This document shows, in pieces, positions 2,623-64,000 of a stretch of 64,000 nt of DNA. The stretch is taken from the NCBI GenBank assembly GCA_916610825.1, contig OU744453.1:9691826-9755825 (forward strand), given 5' to 3'. The notes beneath the pieces are model-generated. The model was given only the letters and a program-made list of their open reading frames with translations, searched no databases and was not told the DNA's origin. The position numbers and the translations under genes are program-made. The DNA comes from Haliclystus octoradiatus. Taxonomy: Eukaryota; Cnidaria; Staurozoa; Stauromedusae; Haliclystidae. Positions within the stretch are counted from its first letter, which is position 1, and the number at the start of each line of letters is the position of its first letter.

Positions 2623-3491
2623 ATGTCAAACGAATACACTGATGAATTTTTGTCAGATGGTAGCTCTGATCTCGACGGCAGGGAAGAATGGGGGAAGCTG
2701 ATAAATGCGTTGAAAGACCTAGATAAAAGAAAGTCGAGTAAAAGAGAAATGGTGTTGTTAATTTGGAAAGGCCGGAGATCACTGATCTAGATCTTCAACC
2801 TACGCCTATTAAGAAGAGTAACAAGCGAAAAAAGGCTACAGCGGCAAAGTGGAAAAGCCCCAAAAGAAAATCCGAATTGGAAGAAGAAAGCTGTATTTTA
2901 ACGTTAATATCATTACTCGAAGATAGGAAATGCCTTTGCGACGTACAAGACGAACGCTATCATTTGAGAGATATTAAAGCCAAAGCCATTGAGGAAATCT
3001 CAAAGAAAATGGAAATAGATGTGAATGAAATTAAATTGAAAATTCAGTCACTAAGATCACAGCTAGGCAGAGAGACTGCAAAAGTAAAACAAACTAAGTC
3101 TGGCCAAGGAACTGATGAGCATTACGAGCCAACTTGGCAATACTACCAGCCACTGAAATTTTTGATTCCTGTGATGCAGGCGGGTAAAAGTAGGGACAAT
3201 ACTCAATCCGGCATCACGATTGATTCAGATAGCAGCGATAATTGTGAAGATAGTTTTGACTCAGCATCAACAACTAAAACCAAGAAGCAAGCGAAAAAAG
3301 ATGTTAAAAAAGATAAAGATTCTCAAAAAAATTCAATGCTCAAGGAATGCATTAATGCCTTGATTAAGCCTGTGATAATGCCAAGCAATACAGCATTAAA
3401 CGGACCAGTAGATCACTATTTGTATTTAATAATGATACATCTTATGCTTTATGTTACACCTTTTTCACATATTTTGTCTTTTCTTGTATAA
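2623..3491 (+). pseudogene. MADF-domain (Myb/SANT-like) protein, one frameshift
   Basis: The ATG at 2623 opens about 55 codons of acidic N-terminal sequence. The frame then has to shift near 2742-2780 into a second frame running to 3491. The second part holds a MADF-type DNA-binding domain (roughly residues 40-135 of that frame): the LISLLEDRKCLCD start, the YHLRDIKAKAIEEI helix and a closing YYQPLKFLIPVM. Acidic/Ser-rich and Lys-rich segments follow. MADF proteins are a common second gene of PIF/Harbinger transposons and also occur as host factors. A short unspliced intron across the junction is possible, but I see no clear donor/acceptor pair. Confidence 0.6.
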
Positions 3492-21798: not shown

Positions 21799-24262
21799 TG
21801 TATTGATTGAGAGGTACTTAATTTCGACTTCATTATACTGAGTAGCGACAAAAAAAACACACGATAATCTGAAAAGGTTTCGATTTATTCCAAAATCATT
21901 GTCAGGTAAGTAAAATATTGATCATGTTAATTACTTTTTAACTATAAATACCTGTTCTCTCTCTCTCTCTCTTTTACTTGCCTGACAATGATTTTGGAAT
22001 AAATCGAAACCGTTGCAGATTATTGTGTGTTTTATTCGTCGCTATTCAGTATAATGAAGTCGAAATTAAGTACCTCTCAATCAATACAATCATCAACCGT
22101 GACTACAAGTTCCGCCATTCCAATTGATTTGGAATGCAAACTAATTTTAATTCACTACCTTGGAGAGATATGAACCTTATTGTTATGTGTTGCTTAAGTT
22201 TAATGGGATTTTGTATCAAAAAGCTAAAGGGAGAGCGAGATTTGCAAAATAGACATTTACATGGCAATACTAATATAAGCAATTTATGATGTTGTTTTCA
22301 TGCTTTAAAGTTGGTAACAATACGTGTGATTGCTGGATTGCAGTTATGTCGGCCATGCAGGTCGGCAATTTTCTGTTATCGCCCTGCTGAACAGCAAAGA
22401 AATTTCAAATAATCAAGATAGCCGTGGTAATGTCCTCTGTATAACTCTGGATTGTCTGTTGTCAATCTTGATCAATGTTCCATTAGTATTTGTAATTATG
22501 TTTTGTATTGCATCAATGGAATATATAATATGGTACAATAAGTAGATACAAGAATGAACTTAAAGATTGAGAGTGAGACCAAGTTTACTTGTTTTCATGC
22601 CTTAACGTTGATAATATTTTGTGTGACTGTTGGATTTCAGTTATGTCGGCCACTCAGGTCGGCAATATTTTCATTATCAACACCTGCTGGAAAAAAATTA
22701 AAATATCTGTGACTATTCTGATGAGCATTTTACTTTCTATGCTTTGTTTCATTGTTTTCATTGTTTCATAGTATAACAGTAATTATTATTTCATATTTGT
22801 GTTGTTTTAAAGCAGGGGTTCCTCAGGGTAGCGTCCTTGGGCCTCTTCTCTTCCTCATTTATATGTCACCCTTGGGAGAGATCATAAGAAAGCATGGAAT
22901 AAGCTACCATATGTATGCTGATGATATACAATTGTATGTAAACTTCAAGTCATCATCGCTAACTGAAATGAATGCTGCACGCTTGCGTATTGAAAATTGT
23001 GTGCAGGATATTGATGCCTGGATGTCGTGGAATGATCTAAAGCTTAACATGAAAAAAACGGAATTACTTGTGATAAATGCACAAAATCGCTGCAAGCACA
23101 ACTCACAAGCTATACACAGCATAACCTTGCAAGACAATATTATTCATACGAAGCCCAATGCAAAGAATATTGGTGTTATTTTTGACTCGTCGATGTCAAT
23201 GGAAAACCATATTATTAAAACCTGTAAAACGTGTTATTATCATCTACGAAATATAGGTAAAATAAAGAGATATCTTACAAAGAAGGCAACAGAAACAATT
23301 GTACATTCATTAATAACATAACGACTGGATTTCTGTAATGCTTTGTTATATGGCATTAACAAAAGATATATTGAGAAGCTGCAAAGAGTGCAAAATACAG
23401 CAGCCAGAATTATAACTCAAACACTTCGAAATATGAACATATAACATCAATACTATTCGCTCTGCATTGGTTGCCGATCGAGCAAAGAATAATTTTTAAA
23501 ATATTACTTTTAGTTCACAAGTCATTAAATGGCTTTTCACCTTGTTATTTATCTGACCTTTTAACATTATATCAGCCAAACAGAATCCTGAGATCAATGG
23601 ACAAAAAACAACTAAGAAAATATGTTTATAGACTAGAAAGATGTGGAGGTAGGGCGTTCAGACATGCTGCCCCTATGCTATGGAACACGTATGTAGATAC
23701 AACAATATCTGATGCTTCCACAGACATTTTTAAAACATCAATGAAAACTATTTTATTTAAGGCAGCTTTCAAATGCTAAGTTTTTAACAGCTTATACGAA
23801 AAAATTTTATCTGCTTTTAATCATTAATTTATACATAAATTTATTGCTTTTAATTTAATTCTTATTATGCGTCAATCACATTTATATATATTATACAATT
23901 TTATTATATTTTATACAATTTTATCGCAAGTGTAAAGCTATTGAGCAATTATGGAAATAGCGCTTAATAAATAAATAAATTATTATTATTATTATTATTA
24001 TATTTGTGTTGTATTGTAACCGTAATTAGTTCTGCTATAGACCATCTTTTCCGTCATAATGTTTCATGTATTGTTTAGCGTGTTATAGTCGTACAGAGCC
24101 CCCAATTTCAATAGATTAGGTAAATTACTTTTTAATTATAAATATGATGTAAAACCTGTTCTCTCTCTTTTATTTGCCTGACAATGATTTTGGAATAAAT
24201 CAAAACCGTTGCAAATTATTGTGCGTTTTATTTGTCGCTACTCAGTATAATGAAATAAAAAT
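21799..24262. mobile_element. long-inverted-repeat element with nested LINE, copy A
   Basis: 21799-21915 and about 21974-22088 are inverted repeats of about 115 bp around a CT-rich loop. A third copy of this end (GCCTGACAATGATTTTGG through GTCGCTACTCAGTATAATG) sits at about 24170-24252. In between, two tandem blocks about 296 bp apart carry ATGTCGGCCA(t/c)(g/t)CAGGTCGGCAAT (22346 and 22642), the motif also found in the element at 41-42.5 kb. A LINE is inserted at 22806. Together these define one family with long terminal inverted repeats. Confidence 0.6.
22806..23999 (+). mobile_element. 5'-truncated CR1/L2-type LINE with 13-bp target duplication
   Basis: ATATTTGTGTTGT flanks both sides (22793-22805 and 24000-24012). 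The insert starts inside the reverse transcriptase: [18 protein letters not shown], then [12 protein letters not shown], the catalytic YADD, then the C-terminal thumb (LHWLPIEQRIIFKILLLVHK, GGRAFRHAAPMLWN) ending at 23779. One stop at about 23320 and a frame change near 23440 break it. The 3' end has the family's AAAGC...GCGCT stem and an ATT-repeat tail (23980-23999). It is inserted into the long-inverted-repeat element. Confidence 0.85.
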
Positions 24263-25778: not shown

Positions 25779-27853
25779 TTATTTATTACATTTTCTGTAG
25801 CTATTCAAAAACACAATAGCATCGAACGATTCAGAGCTTAGAGAACTGCGCCTCTCTTCAAAAGCCCGTCCTGAACAAGAAAAGCTACGTTCGGATGAAG
25901 CTGATGAACATGGTATTGATAAAATAAATCTTGCCAGTTTTGCTAGACCTGGTAATAGGTCGTTTTGATGCTTCCAGAAAGAAATTATATCCATACCACC
26001 AGTGTGATGTGCATTGTTTGTTTCAAATAGTTTTAAGTCGAAAGAAGTTCTCAAGTACAAGCTGACTTCATCTTCACTTGCATCAATTGTTGTATCGTCA
26101 GCAATTTCATCGAAATTTACCGCATAATCTTTTTTTGGCTTTGCTGATGTAGGATTACTGTCATCTTCTTCACTTATTGCTGCTATATTGCCATGTTGTG
26201 TGGGTTTTGTAGGTTGAAATCTTGTTTCAGCTAGAAATTCTCGAACTGAGTAATGAATGGCACTAACTCGAGCTACTGGTAAGATTGTAAGACTTTTAAA
26301 ATTTGGCGATAAGAACAGTGCAACTTCATAAATTAAGTTTGATGGAAACTTCACATCAAATAGGACCAGTGAGGATTCTTTTAGCTGCTCAACCTCTTGG
26401 GAGTCTCCAAGTGATGGCTGACAGTGTTTGATAAGTTTCTTACTCCATAATAGTACTCCTTGCATAGTAGGATATCTGTCACCCTCCATCTCATCAGATA
26501 TGGCTTTGAAAGGCTCAAGGAAGTTGATGATGTCCTTCATTAGTGAAACATCAATACCATCAATCCAATGGGATTCCCCTTTATCTTTGACAAGATCACA
26601 AATTTCTGGCCAGACTTTAACCATGCTCATCAACAGTGCCAATTTAGTGTTCCATCTGGTTTCACAGTCTTGTAGTACCATTGTTGGCAACTTGGCTGCA
26701 AGGCCAATTCTTTTTAGGTAGGTGACAAGCAGTTTCGTCTTTGTTAATAAGTCATTGATGCTTTCTGACACCTCTCTCTCTCTTCCATTAAAGCGAACAA
26801 CTCATCATAGTCCTCATCTTCGTCTCCATCAATCTCTTCAGGTTCAGGCTTTAGTTTGAAGGCATGAAAAAGGATAATATTTAAAATATGACAACAGCAT
26901 GGAAGCCATTGGTAACCTCGTAATGCCTTCTTCACGTTTGCTCCTCTATCTGTCACAAAGTAGAAACATTGTTTTGCTGCTAACAAATCAACGCCCTGAT
27001 TAAGCAATGCCTTGAACAGTTCATTGCAATGCCTTGAACAGTTCATTGCGTATGTTGACCCCTGACTTAAGGTTGGGTATAAAAGGTAAGCAAAACATGG
27101 TGCATTTTTTCAAGCAATCATCAGCCAGCCACTGCACTGTGCAAGCCATGTATGATTCTTTGCGATGGTTGTCTGTCCACATATCGGTTGTCATACCAAC
27201 TCCCCCATTTTCTTTTATTGCTTTAGTTACAACCATGGCCAGATAGTTCTTCTCTTTTGATGCTATGTCTTTCACTTTCATGCTTACTTGACGACGGCTT
27301 GGCAAAACATCAGATGCCTCAATATTATCAAACATAGCACCAACGTTGATTAAAGATTGAGCTAATTTCAACATACCACTTCCTTCAATTGACATGAATG
27401 ATCTCATATCTTGAACAACAAAACTGACAGCACTGTCTAAAACTTTCTCTTTGCTTTGCTTGGTACAGATTATTTTGCAAATAATAGCTTACGTTGGGTA
27501 TTCTTTGGCTGTCCAACACAATTTGAAATGTGCCTTGTTAGATGAGTTGTTCCTGTGTTATGTGACTCAAATTTAAAGCAGATGTAACAGTTCTTACAAG
27601 CAACGACTGGAATGGCTTTCTTGGTAGCATCTAAAACATTTCTGAAATGTTGCCACACAGCTGACTTTATCTTGCCAGTTTTCTCTTTCAGGGAAAAATC
27701 TCCATCCTTGAGTTTTTGCTGAACCAATTTCAAGTCTAACTTATCTTGACTAGCTGATGTAGCAGATGAACTTGATGGGGTGACAAAAGCCATGATAATG
27801 TAAATAAAAAAATGTTTCGAAAAGCTGCGATGGCGAAAGACAAGCAAAGTCAA
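25779..27853 (-). pseudogene. hAT transposase, ZBED type, three frameshifts
   Basis: Reading from 27853 down: a BED zinc finger (AVWQHFRNV, CKNCYICFKF, HLTRHI), the first catalytic Asp in TTDMWTDNHRKESYM (about 27190), the second in FVTDRGANVKKAL with the CCCH motif (about 26920), and the C-terminal hAT dimerisation block FILSIPCSSASSERSFS with the catalytic Glu (about 25900). The stop is at 25779. Frame breaks occur at about 27470 (one base lost after LLFAK), at 27005-27048 (22-bp tandem duplication) and at about 26770 (CT-repeat slippage). Otherwise the order and spacing are complete, so inactivation is fairly recent. Confidence 0.85.
27005..27048. repeat. 22-bp tandem duplication inside hAT gene
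   Basis: The 22-bp block beginning CAATGCCTTGAACAG is repeated once, head to tail. Because 22 is not a multiple of 3, it shifts the transposase frame exactly where ELFKAL meets LLNQGVD. Confidence 0.9.
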
Positions 27854-27876
27854 ACTAGCAAGTGATTTATAATATG

Positions 27877-28773
27877 CAGGGATGTTAATAACGATTACAA
27901 AAGTAACGACGTTACTTGTAATCGTTACTTTTTAGTAACTTCTACTTGTAACTAGGTACTTTTCTGTAAAAGTAACTTCTACTTGTAACTAGTTACATTT
28001 AGGATTAAAAATGAAGTAATGATTACTCGTTACTTCTTCACTACATTTTCGCTTTTTTCCGTTACTTTTTTCACAATAGAGTGCTGAAAGTTAGCAGCTT
28101 CTCGATCGCAATTGTGTTTCAAGTAGTCAAACTCTTTTGTTCTCATTGTTACCATCCAAGAACAATAAAAACACAGACAAAAAGTTCCCAACAACTGCAG
28201 GAAATCCTGTTACAGATTTGGAAGTCAAGAAAATTACATTCAGGGAAGTAACATTCAGTTATAGAATCTGTTCTTCCGAGTTTATGATATTCTAGTGATT
28301 CAACGAGCGTTTCATGTCTAATATGTCTGTTCGATCAATTAATTGTCATAGCAACCAAGCTTGAAATAGAACTAATGGCGCATAACTTGAGATTTTTTTT
28401 GTTATGGAAATTAGGGGGATCGCCTAGACCATTCAAACACGCAAAAGACGTCGCTGTGAAATAGTCGTCGGGTGTCTGTTTTCATATTTATATTGTCAAC
28501 AAGAACATTTGATTAATTAACAAATTATAATACAGAAATATTATTTGAATACTTCATATATGTGTCATTGCTTCTGTCGGATATTTTTGGACTTATTTAG
28601 AAAAAGTAACGGGAAAAGTAACTGTAACTAGTTACTTTCGAATTAAAAGTAACCTGTAACTTGTAATCGTTACTTTTTCTGAAAAGTAACGTCTGATAGT
28701 AGCTAGTTACTTTCTCGCCCAAGTAACGGTAACTGTAACTAGATACTTTTAAAAAGTAACTTTAACATCCCTG
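27877..28773. mobile_element. hAT MITE with perfect 8-bp target duplication
   Basis: Termini CAGGGATGTTAA and TTAACATCCCTG are inverted repeats, and ATAATATG flanks both ends (27869-27876, 28774-28781). The first and last 120 bp are rich in GTAAC/GTTAC motifs in both orientations, the expected binding sites. The 897-bp body has no coding frame. It lies just upstream of the hAT transposase relic but has its own duplication, so it is a separate insertion. Confidence 0.92.
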
Positions 28774-35056: not shown

Positions 35057-38130
<3,074 letters not shown>

Positions 38131-46236: not shown

Positions 46237-47230
46237 TGATTTACGCCCTATAAGGTTAATCTCCCTTTTCTCTTACTACTACTGATCTCCTCCTAATTTG
46301 GTGAAATGTTGGCTGTTGTTGTGGGGGCCATGGATGCAGCGAGGGGACGTTTGGGTCGGCAGGGGGCGCAGTGTGAAAGGAGTGGGGCCGCAGGATTTGC
46401 CCGGTGGAGGGCGGATTATTTTTGTTACTCTCTTCATCCTTGCCATCTTTCTTGTGATTATCATTAGTTATTTTACTTCCATAAATACATTTGTTTCAAC
46501 TAATTACATCATAATCGTACAACAGTACATACAACAAGGTGGGACAGACCTCCATACCACGCAACCTACACCACCCGAAACCGGAGGAATCGGTAGCCGA
46601 CGACTGGCAGTCCAAACGAGCGGAGGGACAGTACTGCTGCTGATGATCCAACAAGTACTTACCCTGATCGGTGTATTCGGTGTGAGAAGTTAAGTTAAAA
46701 TAATTTATCTCATTGATTGTGGTAGCAAGCCACACGACCTACGGAACATAAATCCATATGTACCTTTTTCATCTAAAATTCAATGACACGCGCACGGGTC
46801 GGCCTTTCAAATAAATTGTTGGAGCAATAGATTTTGTTCGGGGATCTATAGCAGTAGTTTTTCATTAGCGAAGTTTGACTGACATGGAATCTTTTTTATC
46901 GCGTTATGTACACTACAAAGTCCTTACACGTAATAGAGGCTGCTTTGTAAATGCCAAGTCAGCAAGAAGGTTTGTGTGAACGAGGCTAATATGGCTACCA
47001 AAAAATGTTCAGAATTTTTGTTGAAGTACAACGAAACGAGCAATGTTATTTTGTAAATGGTTCTAATTTATTTCTTTATTTCTAACTTGACCTTTATTTC
47101 TGGACTAAGGTGAGTTGGTAAAGTGAATGACGCTTTTATTGTCATTTCATCAAGCTTTCATTATTTTTAATATTCTACCACAGTGAAGTTTTGAGATGAA
47201 TAAGAATGAATAAGAATAAAATATTCGAAG
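46237..47230. other. no gene recognised
   Basis: GC-richer patch at 46310-46420, then mixed sequence. Open frames on both strands at 46298-46735 overlap each other and show no family, codon or splice evidence. Confidence 0.35.
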
Positions 47231-47237
47231 TATCTAT

Positions 47238-47752
47238 TTGACCGGCAGTCGCAGCCATTATGGATTCAAACGCGCGTGCGCCGACAATCAATTACGTCAT
47301 TCACTCGATCACGTGTTTCACTCGTCCCAGTATTAGGGTTAGGTTTAGGGTCCGATCACGTGATCCACCCGTTTAGGGTTAGGGTTAGGGTCAAGTCACG
47401 TGATAACCACTCGGTCGAGTATAAATTCATTTCTGTTTCATAAGTTGTCGTTGGTTGGCGTAGCTCATTCGGATAGAGTCTGACTAGAGTGCAGGGTATG
47501 CTGGTTCGAGTCCTGGTCGAGACGAAGTTTTAATTTATTTTCATTATTTATATCCCGAAATGTTTACAAGTTACTGTTCGTTCATTATACGCATGCGTTG
47601 GTATCCATAATGGCTGCGACTGCCGGTCAAATTGGTAATAGTCACAGCAAATATCGAACATAGATAGTGTGACGTATACATCTTTGCGCATGCGCTGATG
47701 ACTGCCGGTCAAATAGCCTTGGCGCTAAATGACCGGCTGCCGGTCAAATAGT
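47238..47752. repeat. inverted-repeat block with telomere-like and CACGTG motifs
   Basis: TTTGACCGGCAGTCGCAGCC at about 47240 is mirrored by GGCTGCGACTGCCGGTCAAA at about 47612. Two shorter copies of CTGCCGGTCAAATAG follow, at about 47702 and 47738. Inside lie TTAGGG-type runs (47334-47351 and 47371-47390), three CACGTG boxes (about 47311, 47355, 47396) and a tRNA-like promoter. It looks like a composite MITE. Confidence 0.6.
47456..47527 (+). other. tRNA-like pol III promoter (SINE head or degenerate tRNA)
   Basis: The A box TGGCGTAGCTCATTCGG (47456-47472) and a perfect B box GGTTCGAGTCC (47503-47513) are spaced as in a tRNA. The D arm pairs, but the acceptor stem has several mismatches, so I do not call a functional tRNA. 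Confidence 0.5.
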
Positions 47753-47759
47753 CACAGCG

Positions 47760-48640
47760 TAAAATATTACAATGGTATTTTGCGTGAATGATGCATTTAT
47801 TGTAATCTCATCAAAGTTATATAACAATATTATATGGTCACAGCAATAAGTACATGATTTCAACGTAGTGAACACCGGCTTTGTTGCGCAATATGCCTTG
47901 ATAGTTGTGTTAAACCGATGCACATCCATTTCTGGGATGAACAACTCCGTGTATATCCATGAGGTGTTCCATGCACAACAAAGTAATGTTCACTTTTACT
48001 TCAGTAGTGCCTTTATAAGATAATATTGGTCTATATTTACATGTTGCCATGAAGTACCTTTGAGGTATTTGTTTTCGTAGCGTATGGAATGTGCCAAGGT
48101 TCTGAAATAAAAGAGGAGAAAGTTGTTGAAGTGGAGTTTGTTTAAATTGCAACAGTTTAATGAATTTAGTAGACAAAACACAATTGAAGCAATATCATGC
48201 TGCCTAAATGGTAATGTTGTGACTTGATAGCGAGATACGTAAACATAATTGGCTCATTTTTTATTCTTACACATCCATTCACTTTCATTAGATTGCATTA
48301 GCACTGGGTAAGCTTATAAAGTATTGATTAATGTTGTGTTACTTACATTGCACTGTTAATTCTTGAGTAGGCTACTTTTGAAGTACGTGTTTGAATATAA
48401 TATGTTCTCAGCGAGTTTTTGTCTGTTCATGACATCCAATTGGTATCCAATAAATTAAATTTAATAAATAAGTATATGTACATATATATAATATCACATG
48501 GAATGTGTCAATTGAAATTCTGAAAGGAAAGAAAAAAATGTATTAATTTGGATTGACAACTTATAGCTACCAATTGCATCATTACAGTTGTATAACACTA
48601 TCCACGCTGAATGCTCAACAATGATATAAATTTATTTTAC
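47760..48640. other. 3' flank of the RepHel gene; possible extra terminal exon
   Basis: A strong acceptor (TCTTTTATTTCAG) sits just above 48101 on the minus strand and opens a short frame, so an alternative 3' exon of the large gene may lie at 48101 and below. Otherwise AT-rich and non-coding. Confidence 0.3.
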
Positions 48641-48644
48641 TAAC

Positions 48645-50474
48645 CTTGTTCCTTGTTGTTTCCATCAATTTGCCATGATGGTAGGTCGGTCAATGGTTTG
48701 TTTTGCCTAAGAAAAAATAAAGTAATCAACAATCACAATTTAGTCATATAAATTTTTAATTAATGGTTATAGGGATTATAGTTGTATGGAACATACCGTA
48801 TTCAGCATTTGCAGGTGCAGCTTTGCTGGGGTAACAATAGCAACAAGTGTCTTGATGATGATGTCTGAAGACATTTTCACTGACAGAACTGATTTTAATT
48901 TTGTCAAGAAAGTAGTTGCTGTCTGATTTTTAGTGATGTCACCGTGTTCCCAGTTTGTCACAATAGCATGGACATGCCAAGGGCGGAACATTTGATTGTT
49001 AACTGTTGCATTGGTGTTGAGGTGGTTGAGTTTGGCGTAAATATTGTTAGTAATTCCAACCTGATATACTCTTGAGGATACTGCACTGCCCAATACGTAG
49101 ACAGCAGGACAATCTGGCACGATGATGTTATCCTTCAAGAATATTCCATGATGGTGGTGTTTGAAAGATAATTTGTACAGCATCTCGGAGGAGGCTGTGA
49201 ATACTGAAGAGGCCATCTGAGATATCTGAATAAAAGAAAAAAAATTTATTTATATGATTGATCGCCTTGTCGCTCTTCACTATTTCAAGAAGGGATTAAC
49301 AAGTTTGCTATTTTTCATCGTCATTGGCATTATCGACATATACCTGTAGAATAGCTGCAGCATTGTCACTCTTGTCTCCAACAAAGTAAATGTGTTTTAA
49401 CTGTTGTACACGTGATAGCAACACTAACAACTGCTCTCTCTCCCAAAGATGGTAGGATGGGTCTGTAATAGAGAGTCTTGTTGCAACAGCAGGTAGTGTG
49501 TCACCAATGACCTTGTGTATGGTGGCGCATATGTGGTATCTGTTAAAAAGTTACAAGTTTATTAAAATATGAAAAATATGCCAACTTTAATAAAATAGTG
49601 TGTGGTATTATGCTGGTGGTTACCTCAATGGCAGCTGCTTTCGACGTGCTTGTGTTTTTCCACTCAAAATGAGTGTGGACTGGCATTGTCTTTTTGATAC
49701 TTTGACAATAACCAGCGGGCTTTTCACTAATTTCACTGTGACAGTTTCATCCACAGCAGAGTATGAAACTACTTCAACAACATCACCTTGGATAAATGGA
49801 TAGATAAATTTATGTTTGATAAATTGAACATCAACTCATCAATATCTGTGATAACAGCATTTTATTTTATAAATACCTTGTGTAAATGTGATGCCATGTC
49901 TTGATGTTTTGTTGTAAGTCAACCGAAGGTGTTGACCCACATAGATGAACAGTTCATTGGGTTCTTGGCAAGCATAATCAATAGATTTAACAATGTCCTT
50001 TCGATCAGTTGGTTGCCAGTTGCCTGGTGACACCTCAATTTCATCGAGTGCTTTGAAGGTGGTTCCGACATTGTTAGCTTTCGCCGCAGTCATGACTGAA
50101 GATGTTATTTCAGCTTCTGCTTTTTTTGTTGAAATCACCCTCAAAATTTGAGGTGGCACGTCGTCCCATGTTGGCACAAATGTGCAATTAGCAAGAATTA
50201 GGTTTGTAAGTTGTTGACATTCAATTGGATTGAGGTGGGACCTTAGCATGTTGTTGACTTTCTGAAGTTGTAGGTCTTGTGCACTTCGTACCTTTAGAGA
50301 TTGAAATATTTCAAGGATTAATGTTTATTACAAAACATGCATGTCAGGTAACACTCTAAAAGATGGCATGGAAGCTGTCATGTTGATTTTATTACCTGTT
50401 CTTTGAGTGGCAGAATTGCAAAGTTTAAAAATACATGGAAGTCAAGCCATACATTGTGACCCTATTTGGAGAAC

Positions 50475-50534
<60 letters not shown>

Positions 50535-53500
50535 TAGCTGTTTAATATGTCTTAATAGGGCAAAATAGGTGAACTGGGTATATTATTTACCTGGATTGGC
50601 TGAAGTTGACAATGATCTCCACTGGCCACAATGTAGACTCCGCCGAAGGGTTGGGCATTTCCTCTAACCATTTTCAATGTTGTGTCCATGATTGTCAGTA
50701 ATTCTGTAGAAAACATTCCCAGCTCTTCAACAAACAGGACTTGAATGTTTTTCAAGGCATGATACCTGACAGGATTGTTGATCAGCATTTGGTATGCTTT
50801 TTGTGTCAAATTAGGCACACTTGAAACGTGAGTGTCAGGCACTGGTATGCTGAACAGAAAGTGGGCGTGTTCCCCGCCAAGGTTACGTGCACGGCTAGCT
50901 GTTGATGAAGTCAGCATGCATTTCACCCCACGGCTCAACGCATATGCCAAGGTTGTCAACAGCAGTCTGGTCTTTCCACTTCCAGGAGGGCCACAGAAAA
51001 CATGTGCTGACTGTGTGGACACTCTGTTTGGTGCAGCCAAGTGGTCACGTAGAAGCTTGATTGATCTGTAATAGCAAAATGAGGATGATGAATGTATTTA
51101 ATTTAACCCATATTGCATGTGAAATTAACTATTGTTTAATTGTTTTACTTTGCTACTGCATCTTCCTGCTCAAATTTTGAAGTAAACGTTTGATTGGGAT
51201 GTGATCCAGGTGTTGGATGGTAAGCCACAGGATTTCTTTGCATTAACACGTTTAATGGTGGTAAATTGGGCAAATTTTCCGTTTCAAGATGGTTTACCAT
51301 AGCAACAAACCTGTTGTTCTCGACTTCTTTGATTTGATTGTTCAGTTGTTCAGCGATTTCATCACTGTCGATTGACGGGACTGGCAGGTCCATATCTCCA
51401 GTGATAAAATGAAATCTCAGCTCTGATAAAAAACAATTATGAATGTTAGTTATAGCTGCGTTGTATGGTGTTGAAATGAATGGTTGGTTAACTTACGTTT
51501 ATCGGCCAAAGCAATGAATTTCTGGAACGCCTTTGTTGCCAGCGGATGGAAATCCAGATCACGTAACAAATACTTTTTCAGAATTACATCGATTTCAGCT
51601 TGAGTGACAAGTAAATCATCAGGTAGAAGGCCACAACGATAGAATAACTATAAAATCAAAGATTAACGAGGAATGATGCATTGATTTCAAGAACATGCAA
51701 ATAGTGATAGTAATGGATGGATCATCCTTCTTACCTCTGTCATATCTCGAGCTGAGTAAAAGAGATCCCATTCATTGTCAAATCGTCCTAACGTTATTAC
51801 AAGATGATTGAGAAACGACGGAAGGTCTTCTGGTGTAATAGCTGTGAATACCACCACTGATTTTCGGTCGGTACTCGTATCAACAAACATTTCAAAGAAT
51901 GGCGTCCATTCGCTTTCATCAAATTCGTTATCATTATTGTTTTTTTCTTCCAGGAGAGACGTGACAATGTCCAACAGTTCTGTTCTTCCTGGAATGGCAT
52001 GCATTGGAAAATGAATGTAAATAGATCAAAATGGTATGTTGTCAGTGACATGATTTAAAATGATAACCTTACCCTCTCTGTTAATGTTAACATCGTCTGT
52101 GATGAACTTGTGGAGCTCATCTATGTGAGCATATCGAATTTGTACCTATCGAGAATGCAATAGTACTTTAGCTACTTTGTTTGCAAATATGATGTAATGT
52201 ACAATGGTATCTGTAAGAACTTACTTTAGAGCAATAGACATCAACCCAGGGTGTATCATCATGAGAGCCAATCGTTGGATATTTATTTAACTTGACTTTA
52301 CTAAAACATTTAGTGTAGGTTTCGACATGGTCAACAAGTCTCAGTTCAGGTGGCCTGATTGAGAACCTTGTTGTTTCGTCCATACAAAAACTGCTTTTTA
52401 ATTGATCTTTCATGATTTTGATCTGTGATGGTAAAGAAAACATGTTTGTAATTAAACAAATGTTGAATTGTCATTAAAACCCTGACATTGCTATTGGAAT
52501 ATAGTACTGACCTGTCCATCGCTGTGCTGACGCAAAGTTGGTAAAAGTGATCGTTTTGACACAGCATACAATACATCATTAGCATCAGCTACTGCCGCTG
52601 GGGTGACATTACTGAAGCGCTTGATGTAGCTGCGTCGATCCCTTGGCAAAGTTGACAGATGGACAAAGTCAACTGTGGACTGAACAAAATCAAGATCTAG
52701 CATATACCACAGCATTTCTGTCACACATATCTCTCTTTGCAGAGATTTATGCTGCTTTTCAGCGAAGTACCTGCAATTAGGAATACATTATTACAAAACA
52801 AGATTAATTGTGTCATTGTTGATTGGCAGAGATTGATTATGTTTGAAATTCTTGCCTGTGAGAATCAATTTTGTTATGGTCAATTGGTCGACGTTCGATG
52901 TCGGCAGCAAGCTGATTTTTTTGTGCTGTTATGGTGATGGATGACATGTCATTTTTACCACTGCAATATTTTGTTACATATGATGATAAAATGCGGTCAT
53001 CCATCACCTGAACATTGCTTGATGAGCGTAACGCACAAAAATTTAATGGTTCCATTGGGCTGAAGTGCTCATCCACAGCTGCTGGATAGAGATATTTCAC
53101 TCCCAAGAAGTGTTCTATCGGGACAATAGGTTGATCAGCTGATGATTGGGTTGCTAACCCGAGACGAAGGAAGATGTTCAAAACGTCATCAGAATATTTG
53201 TGAGGGCGGACTCTCTTCTTGTACTCTTCCGAAACAGGATATTTCATTACTCTACATTTCGTTCTTCCGTTTTCATCAACCAACTTTTGGCATCTGCCTC
53301 CAGCTGAAATTATGACAGTGACATTAAATTTAATACATTTGAAATAATGATAATGAAGTTGAAGACCAAATGTTTGTTGTTTGTGTAATACCTTTGTTGA
53401 AGTCGTGCATTTGGAGCTTTTGTGCTAGGTTTATCACATCATGAAGGTCTGATTCGCTTTCGATGAGACCCAAGTCTTTGAGAAATTCAGTTTCATAGCG

Positions 53501-56500
53501 GGCGATGTCATACGCACGACAGACAATCCTTTGATGTGTGATGTCGAATGATTCTGAATTGTCTGTCGTGATCCCGCCATGAATGTGTGGTTTTCCTCCT
53601 TGAGCACCTTCCGACTGGAATTCATAACGGTACCATGCTCCTTCAAATTAAAAATAATTGACATTATGAAAAACAATTTGACAAAGCAGTAAATCAACGT
53701 AAGCAGCACAACTTCTCACCGATCGCTTTTCCAAAACTTTGTTCTTCACTATTCACCCTCCATTTCCAATGCCAATATGACACCCGTTCACAACATTTAC
53801 ACATCAAATTATTGAAAGAATTCATTATTTGTTTCAATTCGTTTGCTGATTTGTGGCTGTAATAATATATAAAGGTTAAATAAACGGCGGCACTACAGTC
53901 AAACATGATCAATGGAAAGGTAACATGAAACACTTACCCATGGTGTTTTAGAATGGCAAGGCGAATTGGCTTTAGACCGTACGTTTCCATATCGTTGGAT
54001 GTATCGGTTAAAAAATACGTCCAACCACCTTCGTCTCGTTGTTGTGAACAGAGGTTTCGTGCTTGCTTTTTGGCATCAAGCTCGCCGAATGGTAAACGCT
54101 CGGAATCAATTGTTTCGACTGTTATTCCAGAGGTTTTGCTTAACGTTTCCATTCCTGTAGAAACAAAACGTAACACAGTGTGTTAATTTTATTGCACGTT
54201 ATGATACATCACACAAAAACATGTTGAAAATAAATAGGTACCTCTTTTGATGATGAGTGTTGAACTGCTGTGATTCAGCTCTCTGTTGGTGAGCACAGAA
54301 AATGCCCAACTGTGGTATTGTTGATCAGAGCTGGTCAGTAAGGAAAGATCGTTCAACCTTACTGCCAGATGATCTTCCAGGGACCCAAACGTTTTTTTTA
54401 ATCCATATGATGAGTTATACATAAATGATGGCAATGCACCAACGACAGACTCATTTACCTATTCAAAATTCATAATAAAGATGAACAATTTGAGAACACT
54501 GAAAACATCTGTAGGGGATGTAGATATTTTAAAACGTTTTTTGTATTATTACCTGTCTGTGGAATATGCGTGGAGCAATCATCGCTTCTGGAAACAGTAA
54601 CGGTACAGATTTGTTTTGTACAGTGGAACTCAAATGTTGCATAATTTGTGCTGTTTCTGTCCTCTGTTTGTTAAATCCATTGAATGGTATATGACATTGC
54701 AATGTGGCATTCAAAATAAAATGTCCTGACGTTGTGACGGTAGAAGAATCTGTGAACAATGAAAACAGTGATACAAGGTTGCAAAGAAACTATGATTGAA
54801 TCCATTAGGATTATATGAATGAATCATTGTTTTTACCATGTTGATAATAATGTGCGTTTGCAGATGTCATCTGAGGCTGAGCAGCATTTACTCTTAAAGT
54901 GCCATGAAAAGGGTCATGATGTTGCTGCAGCCCTGCATTGTGTTGATGGTTTAGATTTTGAGCTGATGGTGGCTGTGGTGGTACTAGTTGTGGTTGATTT
55001 GGTTGCTGTTGAAGTTGCTTCAGCACAGTATCACCAGCTGCTAGAATAGAACTTGCCACATGATCTTTGCAAATTGAAACCTGTAAAATTGAAATACAAA
55101 TAGATGTATTGATTGGTATTGACTGTGTGATACTATGATGCGGGCCTACTAATATCTGCAATTGATGGTAAGAATACAAAGTTTCTAAAATTTGTAAATA
55201 AAAACTTACCTGGCATTGAGATGTAAATGGAAAATCATGTGGACAACGGTACACAACGTTACACAGCTGACCATTATTAACATGCATCGGGTGGCAGCAT
55301 ACTAACTCGGAATCTAACTTTTCTAGAGGGATGCAAAAAACAATAATTTTTTTAGGGAACTTGCACTATTGCCGAATGAATTTTTAATTGTGTATGCAAT
55401 ATATACCTTTGATCAAATACGTTTTATGAATTTCGCACATAATTTTATCTTGGCCATCTGACCTCTTCATTGCCTCTTTGTAGGTGTCAAGAGGAAGTGG
55501 TGCTAATAAATAAATGCCAACGAAGTACGGTGGCCGTGAGGTTGTTTGTTGCCATGGCATTTTGATGTTCCAACCGAAACCAACACGAATGGCGTGATCA
55601 TTGTCGACCGTTGAACTTTGGACACCTGCTGCCCATAATCGAATGTACCTGATGGAAATAAATTTATTTAAAATCAGTACAATAACGCATGGTTTGGCAT
55701 TGTTATAGTTCATCATTGGATTACACTCATTTTTTTCCATGATGTGTTATTTGATCGGGAAAATCATCATCGCTTCTGCCACGACATGGAATAGACGACC
55801 TTGGAGAAAATATGAGAAATTGAGTGTTATCAATAAGTTTGATGATATTTTCAGAGATTATTAAATACTGTATGATTGTCGATAAATACCTGTCAACAAA
55901 TAACAGGTCTTTTGTATTGGCATCAATGCCGGTTCTGATGTCCGTTACAATTGATGATTGATTAACGGTCAATTTTCTTAAAATTGACAAAAATGCCTGC
56001 ATTACTTTGCAGCTCAGCTGGTTTTCTTGCAAATAGTCTATCACATCGCAGTCTAAACGATATATATCATTTATTAAGTGATTGGATATTCGATATTGTG
56101 CCCCAATGGCTCTTTCACTGAGCAATAAAACCTTCTTGACAATTGCCTGCAAGTCGTCACTATTGTTTATGGCTATCACCTCTCTCAGTTTCGAATTGTG
56201 AGCGACAGCATCAATTAACAGACGTGCAGTAACATTTCTTGCAACATCCCTGTCAAACAATCCAAGATTTCCATAATTCAGAGCCTTTCAAGAAAAGGAG
56301 AAGATAATGGTTGATTACTTAATTGTGCATTAACTTATTTTGTGCAGAGAACCTCTGACGCTGGAATTTGATTATGGACAAGAGCAGTAGTTGACCAGCT
56401 CTTGCAATAGTTTTTAGTGAATAATACACATGTTTTTGATTGATATACTAACCTGTGGTATGTCGGTATGTGGATTTCCATCAGGATGCTTGATGGAATG

Positions 56501-58883
56501 AATGACAGGAACATAATGTTTCAGTTGAATTGCAGAATCTTTACTTTTGCTTTTGTTATCAATCAGTTGTTGTAGATGAAGGGCATCATATGGTGTCATG
56601 TAAGATCCATCTGTTTTGGTAATGTTTTTATCTTTGTAGATTTGAAGGTGTTCTTCTACAAAATCTGATGATAGATGGTGTTGATTTGCCAAATACCTGT
56701 AAGAATCAGTTGAAAAGTGAAAGTTAGAAAATGATGCTGCACAAATACATGAATCACATAGCAGTAAAACATCACACATAATTTCATCACACAGGTACAT
56801 ACCGACGTATATCATCTCTTTAATCTAATACCATTCCATATGTAATGCGATCTGTTCTGTTGGATTTTCATTTTGTTTGTTTTGTGTAACTTTAAACGTA
56901 CTGAGACCTATATAATTGAAACATGAAATTGAAAATCAAACAAAAAAAATAATTAAACTTGTAAATGTTAATGTTTTGGTATAAATACAAACCTTTGCCA
57001 TTGCCTCTCATTGTCAAGACATCGTATGTAGTATTTTGAGGATTTGCCTTCCCTAACCGTACCAAGCTAGATGAAATGGTTAGTGGTGCCAAGTCATCGT
57101 TAGAATCTGGAGGGGAACTGCCGTAGATTGGATGTTCATTTAAATGAATGATAGTTTTTTCCGATGAGTGATATCTCTCATTACACACAATGACGCTTAG
57201 TCCATTTTTGTCTATTATCAGACTGGGGCTTGATGTCCAGTCAAGCTGAGACACCGACGATGGAAAGTCTGTTCTAGAACAGGCCAGTCTGTTGATGTTT
57301 GGCTGAAGTTGAGTGTTGAGTTCTGCCAAATGCTTGAAGTAGTGATTGGCAGGAATACTGCGTGTTCTTTTTCGAAAAATGTCATCTACGAAACGACAGC
57401 AACCTGCTGGACATCTCACTTCAGGATAGGGATTTTTTTTTAAAAATTTTATCATGTTACCAATTTTTAAACTACCTGATAATTGTTTTTTGGACTCGAT
57501 GACGTCCAAGGTGACGTTCTTAAATTTTGGTAGCACTGGCCAGTGCTGAATGATATTTGGTGATATCAAATGGTAGGAATTTGTCCAAGCATGTCGCAGA
57601 TCCTGTGGAATAGCTTCCATGAATTGTTTGGGCTGGCGACATGCTGTGGTACCACTCAGCACTGACCACATCTGTGCTGGCCATGAATGATGCCAATTTA
57701 ACTTGTTGTTGTTCAACATTGCTGTGCAATGGTGGCATGCCACGTTCCCCTCGCGTTGGCCATTAAAATCTCCAATTTTGTGTTTTTTGAGGTTTGCTGT
57801 CAGGTTTTGAAAATTCAGGGGATGTGATGGTGTTGTTGTCATGTGACACACGCTGCACATGATGGGTGGTGTGTCACCATCAGATGAATCTTGCGAACTG
57901 GTTTCATCACTGCCTTCACTATCTGAGGAGTCCATCTAAAAATTGATAAAATCAGAATGAATCAAACGGCTGTGTTGTATTGTAACTGTAATGTTATGCT
58001 TTATTGTTGACTGCTTACATAAATGTAGCTTTTTGTAAAATGCTAATTCAATATGATGCATGAAAAGTGCAATCTACTTACATCTGATGATGATGATGAT
58101 GATGATGACATGTCAATGTCAGACGAAATTAAATCATGATTTTGTGAACTTGACTAGTTGACGTCCTAAATGAAGAAGTAGTGTATATAATTAACGAATG
58201 CATAAAGAAGAGAAACCTGCTATACAATGATACGTTAGGTGGGATGTACTACAATTCTTATGTTGGTTCTTTATCCACTCCCTAGGAACACATTTGGAAA
58301 TCAATCATGAGTAACTGTCAATTTCAGGTTTGTGTTTTGGAGTAGATTATTTATGAAATTGAATTTGTTTCAAAGTTGTTTGAATCATTTTTGATATGTT
58401 AACTGTAACAATTATCATTTGCATAAATAATCATGTAATTGACAAGAACAGAAAATACTCACTGAATTGTGATGCTGCTGGAATGGTATACCATTGTTAA
58501 TGTTGCCATTATGGGGAGAATGCTGAACCTGTTACACAAGTTATGAAAAGACAACATGAGTTAATTTGTGTATATAAAGCGCCATAAATTCACCTACTCA
58601 TTAGATTATGTAGAAGCAGTAAATTGTTCTCTACTTACATTAGTTGATATATTTATATTTGCATCGCTGTTGTCTTCGTCATCACTTGAATCGACCTGCA
58701 AGTGAATAAATGTTTCCGTATATAATGACAATGCTATAATATGTATCCTATTTTGTAGATACGACAAATGTCATTTAATGTGACATTGTGCTGACATTCA
58801 AGAAGAAAGACAGTAACTATAGATGTAGATTTTGTAAAATGCTAATTTAATGTGATAGGTGAAAAGTGCAATCTACTTACAAT

Positions 58884-58928
<45 letters not shown>

Positions 58929-59612
58929 CATGTCAATGTCAGACGAAATTGAATCATCATTAGTTGACTATGTGACGTCCTATGTAAAATAAAACATGAA
59001 TAATAAATCAAATGTGATTAACCATTTGTATTCAATTTGTTTCAGGGAAGCCCATTTTGACCAATGTGGGAGTGTGGACCCACAGAACTATCTACATGTT
59101 TTGACAGGCTGTACATAGAACATCAGTACTGATAGTTTCAATATTTATAAATTCTGATAGTTGATATGTATGTTAATATGTATATATGTGTACAAATGTG
59201 GTAATAACTTAATAAATGAGCTGTGAACAACAAAAATAAAATCTTACTGGAGGCTGTTGTTGCTGTTGTTGAGACTGAGATTCATCAATGTTGTCGATCT
59301 GAGGTGATAAACACAGGTCATTAAGTAATGCTTACAACTTGATGATTTCTTGATATATGATCAATTTATCTGAATCACAATTTACCTCCATAGACATGTC
59401 TTCATCATTGTCTTGATCTGGCACTGGCAGTGGCGGAACAGTTCGAAGGGGACACGCATTTGACCTATGCCCACGTTGCTGCAATATCAGTAACAATTGT
59501 ATCAGTATCCATGGTGATAATTATGAATACAAAAAAGCAAATATTGTTTTTCATCATAAATACTTACATTACAACGTGAACATGTATATTGTTGTTTTAT
59601 GTGTTTTCGACC
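48645..59612 (-). CDS. Helitron-type RepHel protein with C-terminal GIY-YIG-like domain, 33 exons
   Basis: Chained by splice sites and phase, 5' to 3': 59568-59612, 59386-59478, 59248-59298, 58881-58967, 58639-58695, 58463-58528, 58082-58153, 56993-57935, 56832-56907, 56453-56696, 55890-56284, 55407-55648, 55210-55322, 54837-55080, 54553-54749, 54242-54458, 53938-54154, 53720-53856, 53392-53640, 52856-53303, 52512-52770, 52225-52422, 52073-52145, 51735-51988, 51497-51647, 51149-51422, 50591-51065, 50396-50461, 49877-50291, 49624-49786, 49344-49539, 48797-49225, 48645-48706 (stop 48665-48667). Every junction keeps frame: about 2,395 codons without a break. Known Helitron proteins nick and unwind DNA for rolling-circle transposition. 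The start exon is not identified (the first listed exon has no ATG), and the helicase-family match is from motifs only. Confidence 0.8.
48797..49225 (-). CDS. RepHel C-terminal GIY-YIG-like domain
   Basis: This 143-codon exon follows the helicase in frame. PAVYVLGSAVSSRVYQVGIT fits the GIY...YIG strand pair (Y-V-L, then Y-x-VGIT), followed by NNIYAKLNHLN, the helix that normally holds Arg and ends in H-N, and FRPWHVHAIV, a strand seen in related domains. The catalytic Arg appears replaced (A-K), and I cannot place the catalytic Glu, so nuclease activity is doubtful. The last codons run into the 48645-48706 exon. Confidence 0.5.
49344..51065 (-). CDS. RepHel: Pif1-type SF1 helicase domain
   Basis: Exon 50591-51065: Walker A GPPGSGKT (about residues 1826-1833), Ala/Thr-rich motif Ia (TSSTASRA), Walker B VLFVEELGM (an E in place of the usual first D) and motif III GDHCQLQP. 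Exon 49877-50291: ITFTQGD just before the C-terminal lobe. Exons 49624-49786 and 49344-49539: RRKQLPLRYHICATIHKVIG, motif V with TIHK, and motif VI WEREQLLVLLSRVQQL. These are in the order and spacing of Pif1/Helitron helicases. ATP-driven unwinding is the expected role. The variant Walker B is the only unusual residue. Confidence 0.8.
50479..50530. repeat. (TA)n microsatellite in a RepHel intron
   Basis: About 26 TA dinucleotides in the short intron between exons 50591-51065 and 50396-50461. Confidence 0.95.
52856..54749 (-). CDS. RepHel: Helitron N-terminal and HUH Rep nuclease domain
   Basis: Exon 54553-54749 carries VPLLFPEAM, like the Helitron 'PLLFP' motif. Exon 53938-54154 has GGWTYFLTDTSND, the family's motif with the FLT core. 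Exon 53392-53640 has YEFQSEGAQGGKPHIHGGI: PHIH is the metal-binding His-hydrophobic-His of HUH nucleases (about residue 1184). Exon 52856-53303 has LSSYVTKYCSGK (about residues 1355-1366), two tyrosines four apart, the arrangement of the nicking tyrosines of Helitron Rep. This would cut one strand and bind its 5' end. All key residues are present. The intron after 52856 begins GC, not GT. Confidence 0.75.
55210..57935 (-). CDS. RepHel N-terminal region with Cys-rich segments
   Basis: The large exon 56993-57935 starts DSSDSEGSDETSS, then has zinc-binding Cys pairs (MCSVCHMTT, ACHHCTAML) and a second Cys cluster (VRCPAGCCRFVDDIF). The following exons give HMEWYLANQHHLSSDF, a helical segment, DLLFVDRYIRLWAAGVQ and another Cys-rich exon (CCHPMHVNNGQLC, CPHDF). 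This resembles the long, poorly conserved N-terminal region that precedes the Helitron-like N-terminal domain. Functions are unknown. Confidence 0.55.
58082..58967 (-). repeat. duplicated exon with flanking intron
   Basis: 58010-58160 and 58810-58985 match: the GTAAAATGCTAA block and GAAAAGTGCAATCTACTTAC of the intron, the TGA-repeat, and the exon through ATTTCGTCTGACATTGACATG. The copies differ in repeat number (8 versus about 14 triplets) and in the residues before it. Confidence 0.8.
58082..59612 (-). CDS. RepHel N-terminus: zinc knuckle and Ser/Gln-rich exons
   Basis: Seven short exons, all phase 0. The junction of the first two builds CSRCNQRGHRSNAC, an exact CX2CX4HX4C zinc knuckle of the nucleic-acid-binding type. 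Then come an acidic segment, a Gln run (QSQQQQQQPP) and two Ser-run exons (58881-58967 and 58082-58153) that are duplicates of each other, including about 60 bp of the following intron. The Ser runs are encoded by TCA repeats, so their length should vary. This part is probably a flexible linker. Confidence 0.65.
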
Positions 59613-60017
59613 CTGAAATAAAATATGTAGAGTGATTAAATTAATATGCTTCCATTATAAAGTTATATGTTGTTCATGTAACAGCACCATCTATTATGTA
59701 AGAGAATGCATTCGATTTATCTTGCTAGCAATTAAGATTTGTTAAATCTCCTGTGTCTCCTCATTTGTTTGGTCAATCTAAAATAATTTTCTTAATTTTT
59801 CTTATATTTGTACCTCTTATATTTTACAATAAAAATGTTTTTTTAAAGTAACTTGAATTATAGGATTATAGCCCCTTATATTGAACTAAATTCTACTGAA
59901 TTAACAAAGGAAAAGGGGTGCCCAAATAAAGTTTGGGTTTGTGAATGACACCAGAAAAAGAACTATTTTGTCTGGGATAAGGCACTAGGATAAGGATACA
60001 GTCAATATGGTAAAATT

Positions 60018-60707
60018 GTCTCTTCTCTTTCCGTTTTGGTTGTAATCGTTCTCCGATTCTTCCTCTGTCTTTCGAAGACTCGTCCATACTTTCCGAGGTC
60101 GCAATTTATGTAGTCTTTCCAGTTGCTAAATTATTGATATCAGTGGTCAGGCGTCAGTTAGTCGATTCAGTCAATTCGGTTACTGTTCAGGGATTTCGTG
60201 TTTTGTCAAAGATTTGAGCCATGTCGAATAAGTCTCTCCATTTAATAGCCTCGTCTAAAAGAGTTCGATCCGATTAAATTATTAAAAAGATTATAGATTA
60301 CAACAATGCACAAAGAGGAAAAAAAACGTAACAGTACACATAACAATGCAATTGTTACAAATTAGAAAGCGGGTTTTGTAGTTCTGAGAGCTCAATCGCT
60401 AAATTGAAACTGATATAAAGTGATAATAGTTAATAGGTCAAATGTCGATAGCATGTCCAAAATGTATGAATATATGAAATGCCTATATGATATGAGCCAA
60501 AGATGATCCAAACGTTTTCAAACAAATTAATACATAAATATTAACCTTTTGGTTGATCTTTTCTTTGGTTTGTTTGCTGTAAATAAACACAGATCATACG
60601 TTTATATTTTATAGTTCTGGTGTTACTGTACCACTTACCATAGTGTTACCAATGGCACGTGCTCTGCTCACTGTCCTCGTAGCTTTGGGCGTTTAATAGA
60701 AGACGGT
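60018..60707 (-). repeat. 690-bp direct repeat, copy 2 (captured promoter/exon fragment)
   Basis: Same 690 bp as 45547-46236, about 99% identical, same orientation. It includes the start codon and first 23 codons (MDESSKDRGRIGERLQPKRK), but the exon is cut before its donor and runs into unrelated sequence with a stop. It sits directly upstream of the RepHel gene and could supply its promoter. The boundaries GTCTCTTC and AGACGGT show no clear target duplication. Confidence 0.85.
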
Positions 60708-62950: not shown

Positions 62951-63697
62951 CTACCGAAATCTAGCGCTGGTACTATTGATATTGTGATTGGTGGAGGTGC
63001 CGACCAGATATTGAAGACTCCAGTTGTGCAACGCATTGTTCCAGCATCTGAGACTACACGGACTAAATCTGTTGCTATTGGCGACCAAGTCATAAGTATC
63101 AATGGTCATCATGTTGAAAAAATGAAACTGGCAAAAATTCAGCAAATTATAAAGCAAAGTAAAAGTCCTGTAAAGTTTTTACTTCACCGACAATTTGCTG
63201 ATCAGAATGATGGCGGAAATTTCACATCAGACACTCAAGTAGTTCGTAAACAATTTGAGGAAATGTCTATATCTTTACCTAACGATAACCAATCTGTTGT
63301 CAGCGAAGAACAACCTCAGTCCCCGACTCAACCTCTTTCCAGAAGCGCAACAGTTGGACATCGACGTCCTGCAAAACCATTCACGCGTAACGAACCAGGA
63401 CGATACTCATTACGGACATACAGTCACACATTCTCTACGTTTGGTTCCCCTTCCTCACCTAATACTACACCAACTGTTAAATCCTCGTTTTTTCCTAATA
63501 ACAACAGTTCTGCAACCGAATCCAGTACGAAAACACCTTCGTGTTCAACATCTTCTAATGATACAGAGACTGTAGCAATCTTTCGCGGACGTTCCTATTC
63601 TGAACCGCTTAATCGTCATTCCAGCGTTGCGTTTGTCGATGACGTCTTGCAGCTCAGTCCCGGTACATTGTCAAGAAGAGAAAAGAAAGGCACACAG
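62951..63697 (+). CDS. PDZ-domain protein, exon 2 (gene continues past the window)
   Basis: 249 codons, phase 0 at both ends. It starts LPKSSAGTIDIVIGGGADQI and carries a PDZ domain of about 75 residues: VVQRIVPAS, then SVAIGDQVISINGHHVEKM and the helix KIQQIIKQSKSPVKFLLHR. This fold binds C-terminal peptides and usually scaffolds membrane or junction proteins. The carboxylate-binding loop is not the classic GLGF, so specificity is open. A Ser/Thr/Pro-rich tail with basic SRSATVGHRRPAK-type sites follows. The donor ACACAG|GTACAA at 63698 means more exons lie to the right. Confidence 0.8.
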
Positions 63698-64000
63698 GTA
63701 CAACCTATGATAATTTGATATCTCAAATCTTTCAATTAAATGGAAAACCTTTAGTTTCCATGCTGGTACTGTAGTAAGAATTATCAAATATTGATTACAC
63801 TCTATTCCATAAGAGAACAGATAATAGATTGAGGCTAAACTTGCTACAAATTCAGGAACAAATTAATATGTTATCCTCATTCCATAACGGACCTCAGCTG
63901 CACTCGTGTTACTCATCGAAGCCTTTGCGTGGAGTATAGTAAATATATGAAAGATTTAAAAGGGGATTTGGAATTAAATACAGGTTAAGAAAATTGTGAT
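63698..64000 (+). other. start of the next PDZ-gene intron
   Basis: Sequence after the donor is AT-rich with no coding signal to the window end. Confidence 0.6.

Follow-up and report, generated by a model that had tools for sequence, protein, structure and literature searches.

A probable Helitron-like element of Haliclystus octoradiatus with a RepHel gene ending in an SLX1-like GIY-YIG domain

Helitron-like rolling-circle elements encode an HUH Rep followed by a Pif1-like helicase (RepHel). Canonical Helitrons end in TC...CTRR (PMC5148889), additions to RepHel include RPA, OTU, apurinic/apyrimidinic (AP) endonuclease and zinc fingers (PMC3627910, PMC6431247, PMC5753468, PMC5718144, PMC12910113, PMC4067079, PMC10294476, PMC4289320, PMC5148889, PMC6213432), the Helentron endonuclease lies at the same C-terminal place as the extra domain described below (PMC4067079), and Helentron-type elements of oyster are reported to have satellite-like arrays (PMC7492417). 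Here we analyzed a 64,000-nucleotide (nt) stretch of Haliclystus octoradiatus (assembly GCA_916610825.1, contig OU744453.1, positions 9,691,826 to 9,755,825; hereafter the window), which carries a predicted RepHel gene ending in a GIY-YIG-like domain. We consider it probable that this locus is what remains of a copy of a Helitron-like rolling-circle element, decayed and truncated on its 5' side, and that the element belongs to a divergent lineage in which RepHel ends in an SLX1-like GIY-YIG domain. No description of such a fusion was found in the PMC literature, as far as its text was open to the search; subscription papers, bioRxiv and Repbase lay outside that search, and the priority of the fusion is therefore not certain. 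Penelope-like elements are also transposons that encode a GIY-YIG domain, but they carry a reverse transcriptase instead of the HUH and helicase parts.

Gene models were obtained with a self-trained gene finder, and the model of copy C6a was then mapped onto the window and onto sister copies sought in that assembly, which comprises 33 contigs (262 Mb). By this approach, a gene of 33 exons was predicted on the minus strand, with introns of a median 89 nt, acceptors AG in all 32 introns, and donors GT in 30, GC in one and AT in one. A first-pass annotation of the window, made from the letters alone, had described 33 exons with PHIH and YVTKY motifs and a total of about 2,395 codons; its exon number, coordinates and motifs proved essentially right, and the GIY-YIG-like exon that it had placed last is penultimate in the present model. 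The features are as follows.

46237..60020, minus strand: remnant of the whole element, from BLAST against the C6 and C8 copies; the 3' end near 46237 was counted by hand, and the 5' side is truncated at 60020.
48665..59612, minus strand: RepHel-GIY gene, 33 exons, 7,400 coding nt, from the predicted model and sister-copy mapping.
58082..59612, minus strand: seven short N-terminal exons, from exon-by-exon comparison with sister copies.
56993..57935, minus strand: large N-terminal exon with Cys/His motifs, possibly zinc binding, recognized by eye; no Pfam match to this exon.
56803..56907, minus strand: exon in which, relative to three sister copies, the window copy has lost 1 nt and carries a stop.
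55731..56284, minus strand: exon with AT at its donor in the window, where three sister copies have GT.
52856..54154, minus strand: HUH Rep in four exons with YFLTDT, PHIHGG and YVTKY motifs, from these motifs and a PF14214 match (E = 0.002) below the cut-off.
49344..51422, minus strand: Pif1-like superfamily 1 helicase in six exons, from Pfam matches.
48797..49225, minus strand: GIY-YIG-like exon, penultimate, aligned catalytic Arg and His gone, from profile comparisons.
48665..48706, minus strand: last exon, 42 nt including the stop, from the gene model and sister copies.

The window copy belongs to family A, which has copies on C6 and C8; a second family, B, is found on C2 and C6. Introns were compared between a family A copy (C8a2, 32 introns) and a family B copy (B3, 27 introns) whose proteins are 50% identical (1089 of 2182 aligned columns). 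Twenty distinct family A introns, in 21 pairs, agreed in position and phase with those of family B; 1,000 random placements gave a mean of 0.5 and a maximum of 4. The seven models are not fully independent because the gene finder was retrained on all of them jointly, with intron positions still chosen on different sequences. Chance open frames were ruled out by this intron agreement together with the ratio of nonsynonymous to synonymous divergence (dN/dS, below). Introner-type shared introns were also ruled out; one similar intron pair was found, and it adjoins a duplicated exon stretch. Exons 58881-58979 and 58082-58165 have a duplicated stretch of 53 nt in common (98%).

The predicted protein carries both features by which RepHel is recognized: the two-His and Y-x-x-K-Y motifs of an HUH Rep, and a Pif1-like helicase behind Rep. 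Pfam scans covered part of the exons, as 10 pieces in one scan and 6 in another. The helicase piece matched PIF1 (PF05970) at 1.4e-13 and 51.4 bits, above its cut-off of 25.9. By contrast, the Rep piece reached 18.8 bits against Helitron_like_N (PF14214), below the gathering cut-off of 28.9. The locus resembles canonical Helitrons (Helitron1) in its Rep-Hel order and its HUH and Y..KY motifs, and differs from them in this low PF14214 score, in its inferred ends and in that the pieces and proteins scanned gave no DUF6570 or Pif1_2B match. The family B Rep piece had no Pfam match at E<=1, and four lineage relatives scanned barely exceeded the PF14214 cut-off (29.1-39.2 bits). Genome-wide, PF14214 gave 54 matches, 52 of them above the cut-off, and the top-ranking ones belong to canonical-type Helitrons whose open frames reach 1,195 residues; the coordinates of the window, family A and family B were absent from all 54. 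This lineage may have escaped notice because the score of its Rep lies close to or under the Pfam Helitron cut-off, and annotation based on PF14214 can miss whole Helitron-like families. The canonical-type Helitrons of this genome have frames of 985-1,195 residues in several equal-scoring copies (C2:2694648, C4:33231242, C8:6571468 and others). Separately, synonymous divergence of the window copy from C6a or C8a2 was 0.28-0.31 in Rep exons 53392-54154 and 52856-53303 (minus strand) and 0.03-0.16 in other exon groups, and the copies look mosaic at the Rep exons, as if by recombination or conversion.

Relatives were sought by comparing residues 900-2200 of the 2,209-residue family B protein with a database of 5.8 billion proteins. 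One match was found among the 7,994 candidates listed: P0001 (2,363 residues, from the Joint Genome Institute; E = 3e-168, 31% identity, 96% of the queried region), with Pfam domains PF14214, PF05970 and PF01541. With P0001 itself as query, 6,108 candidates yielded 12 further proteins. Eleven of them (P0002-P0012) belong to the same lineage; the other, P0013, is of canonical type, with a coverage of 13% and a PF14214 score of 99.7 bits. PH[IV]H and Y..KY were present in the alignment of the 12 lineage proteins. Precomputed PF01541 matches are attached to nine of the 12, and the alignment shows a GIY-YIG domain at the end of ten; the sequences of P0010 (hagfish) and P0011 stop before that domain. 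So far the lineage comprises this host, other assemblies and a vertebrate, whose hagfish record ends before the domain. Each relative is recorded as one long protein (1,441-2,583 residues), and these records suggest that their genes lack introns; the host gene has about 32, most of them conserved between diverged families. Searches of viral contigs with A2 (the host exon profile described below), P0001 and A3, and of genome contigs with A3, returned nothing of use. In a tree without P0013 and P0011, the three host proteins grouped together (support 100/100) at the end of a long stem, separate from 10 catalytic rows; its root is not fixed, and P0012 has a long branch and odd composition. When P0013 was included, its branch was too long to place the lineage relative to canonical Helitrons.

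The GIY-YIG-like exon was examined with a profile (A2) of eight host representatives. Against PDB, the top match was SLX1 (4xlg, E = 7.8e-4), and SLX1 accounted for four of the six matches, all aligned near the SLX1 N-terminus, where its GIY-YIG domain lies. The pattern matched was LQS..F.IG.T.N....L...N with RPW, that is, the Y-x-LQS, F-x-IG-T-x-N, L...N and RPW elements of SLX1; unlike SLX1, the host copies lack the aligned catalytic Arg and His, and the domain is fused to RepHel. Comparison of the host profile with that of the relatives' GIY-YIG domains by hhalign gave 91.8% (E = 7e-7), and 50 column shuffles gave at most 2.0%. In a joint alignment, the match between host and relatives continues across helicase motif VI and on into the GIY-YIG domain; in another alignment (A4), residues 1-37 were scattered over the relatives. 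In BLASTP of the window exon against full-length P0009 the GIY domain ranked first, weakly (E = 0.061). Judged from these comparisons, the exon is homologous to GIY-YIG domains. The catalytic residues of such domains are Arg, His and Glu. Arg and His occupied the aligned positions in all ten relatives and in none of the eight host representatives, and the aligned Glu position, compared in family A and B copies only, held a residue other than Glu. On the premise that GIY-YIG domains are catalytic by origin, this loss would be a derived state. The first-pass annotation had noted neither this loss nor the weak recognition of the Rep by the Pfam Helitron model. The exon alone had a dN/dS of 0.18-0.39 in five family A copy pairs (142 or 143 codons). 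By these measures the host exon lacks the aligned catalytic residues yet is under purifying selection, and it was probably retained for branched-DNA binding or protein structure.

Linkage of the two domains was next evaluated across the genome, in which at least 25 GIY-exon loci and at least 44 helicase-exon loci were found (neighbouring matches merged). At 20 of the 25 GIY-exon loci the same strand carried a helicase exon 1.1-3.2 kb upstream, and at five it did not; a GIY exon followed within 6 kb at 20 of the 44 helicase loci, and at the other 24 none did. The first-pass annotation had regarded the joining of RepHel, a GIY-YIG-like domain and many introns as non-standard. This architecture is supported by the profiles, the alignment and the intron agreement, and the fusion recurs both in the genome and among the lineage proteins, as counted above.

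Over the gene model, dN/dS was 0.14-0.23 in the same five family A pairs, computed without exon 10 and the 42-nt last exon. This selection and the 33 exons could suggest a Helitron-derived gene that the host domesticated and that gained introns as an ordinary host gene would, and canonical-type Helitrons of the same genome retain open frames, as noted. We regard domestication as very improbable. Several chromosomes hold copies, some of them broken; the family A copies have a common 3' end and different flanks; and a multi-copy gene is more in keeping with a transposon than with a host gene. Moreover, most family B introns are common to a family about 50% identical, and the introns therefore predate any single domestication.

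The window copy itself is a decayed and 5'-truncated element copy. Lesions were called exon by exon against three sister copies (C6a, C8a2 and C8b). By this approach, one stop each was detected in exons 58881-58979 and 58082-58165, the conserved frame was found to be lost downstream of the 1-nt deletion in exon 56803-56907, and a donor was altered to AT. An open path can still be threaded through the window (29 exons, 2,309 codons including the stop), but it bypasses the lesions via splice sites unused in the sister models. C6a and C8a2 had zero stops in the exons compared pairwise; two short N-terminal exons are missing from C8a2, C8b showed five stops of its own in its comparison with the window, and the start codon of the gene model is putative. 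Beyond the point matching window position 60020, C6a and C8a2 run on into arrays of 119-bp units and further common sequence; one such unit, used as a query against the window, was not found there. The gene had been annotated as intact over 33 exons, with recent activity or use by the host as the consequence. Since the window copy is not intact, neither can be inferred from it; the family is under purifying selection and is multi-copy.

The ends of the element were deduced from a few copies. The 3' boundary GGGCGTAAATCA, or a near variant, was found at eight loci (one copy a few bases earlier) with seven different flanks, two loci having one flank in common. The inferred 5' start GGCCCGCGCGG was found four times, twice on each of C6 and C8, and on C8 the 3' end of one copy adjoins the 5' start of the next, head to tail, an arrangement that fits rolling-circle movement. 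Family B copies at four places are 98.7-99.8% identical over 10-26 kb, reflecting either recent transposition or duplication, and the C2 copy is interrupted within a Rep exon by a tandem array. Helitron2 elements have asymmetric terminal inverted repeats and a hairpin at each end, and canonical Helitrons a hairpin near the 3' end; here, no clear inverted repeat was seen by eye at the inferred termini, and folding was no better than that of shuffles at either end. Insertion of Helitrons, Helentrons and Helitron2 elements is into A-T, TT or T-rich targets, without duplication. Tandem arrays, their unit length about 1-2 kb, flank or interrupt the family B copies at C6:10975949-10982710 and C2:31632497-31642579. 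In the 3' non-coding part of the window element, 47333-47404 holds two 32-nt repeats of mostly TTAGGG-like units. A transfer RNA (tRNA) origin of the 3' flank was ruled out, as ARAGORN finds no tRNA in the window.

Such ends and arrays also bear on whether these copies belong to Helentron or Helitron2, Helitron-like groups already known, and look different only through divergence. The likeness to Helentrons comprises an HUH Rep with a Pif1-like helicase, an extra endonuclease-type domain after the helicase, non-canonical inferred ends and satellite-like arrays. By contrast, the extra domain here is GIY-YIG (SLX1-like) and not AP endonuclease, the Rep is very divergent, and the gene in this host has its many introns. 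No AP-endonuclease or OTU match to Pfam was found in the window pieces scanned, nor in full-length P0001, P0005, P0009 and P0012. Judged from domain content, membership in a known group is the less likely reading.

Several results weigh against a Helitron-like element with an SLX1-like domain. The window exon stayed below Pfam cut-offs (T5orf172, E = 0.043; GIY-YIG, E = 0.1), as did the eight representatives at E<=10 (T5orf172 in five, best 0.01; GIY-YIG in one). With A2, PHROGs gave scattered matches only, none below E = 0.04; none of 2,180 candidates scored from the 5.8 billion proteins had E<=0.001; and the remaining two of the six PDB matches were nanobodies, with scores near the weaker SLX1 matches. 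AlphaFold2 with single-sequence input gave the window exon a predicted local distance difference test (pLDDT) score of 29.8, and we therefore claim no fold for it. The window has a His immediately beside the aligned catalytic position, and the alignment could conceivably be shifted by one residue. The window Rep piece matched no Rep in PDB, only Kunitz inhibitors (E>=0.048). The inferred ends (5' GGCCCGCGCGG, 3' GGGCGTAAATCA; few copies) lack TC...CTRR, and two 3' ends, when folded, did no better than shuffles. Finally, the arrays on C6 and C8 show 99.85% identity across 6.6 kb and could have arisen by segmental duplication, and evidence for movement therefore rests on few independent sites.

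Some of these points would suit a GIY-like exon that is an unrelated domain with a chance resemblance to GIY-YIG, in a host lineage that replaced the nuclease or never had it: the low Pfam scores, the uninformative AlphaFold2 model, the missing Arg and His, and copies L050-L054, in which the GIY-YIG signature is barely present. Chance resemblance is nonetheless improbable in view of the placement of the exon after helicase motif VI as in the relatives, the pattern matched to SLX1, the hhalign result against its shuffles and, at its weak E-value, the BLASTP ranking of the P0009 domain.

For a Helitron-like element with an SLX1-like domain, the following mechanism may be proposed. The HUH Rep would nick the element strand and the Pif1-like helicase would peel the nicked strand off. 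The C-terminal GIY-YIG nuclease, which takes the position of the AP endonuclease of Helentrons, would cut either the target strand or an intermediate with a branch or flap. SLX1 is a structure-specific endonuclease, and its substrate preference underlies the proposed flap or branch cutting. In this host, the non-catalytic, conserved domain may bind such branched DNA or hold the protein together. On balance we lean towards a third deep lineage of Helitron-like rolling-circle elements, in which an SLX1-like nuclease processes branched intermediates and which in one host lineage became intron-rich and turned the nuclease into a conserved non-catalytic DNA-binding module. To our knowledge, the completion of Helitron transposition (second-strand and target cutting, branch resolution) is poorly understood. 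A flap- or junction-type nuclease on RepHel, where Helentrons fused another endonuclease, would point to a missing nuclease step that was solved twice, and the catalytic and decayed members offer a natural contrast for testing that step.

Other features of the window were also noted. A hAT transposase remnant lies at 25779-26801 on the minus strand (Dimer_Tnp_hAT, 64.6 bits), and an open frame at 27470-27931 (minus strand), with no Pfam match, was assigned to the same remnant. Pieces of non-long-terminal-repeat (non-LTR) retrotransposons are present on the plus strand at 22725-23321 and 35265-35891 (RVT_1, 65.3 bits; Exo_endo_phos_2 below cut-off). Likely gene pieces were detected on the plus strand at 2742-3491 and 62951-63718, with matches to a MADF DNA-binding domain (59.8 bits) and a PDZ domain (38.4 bits).

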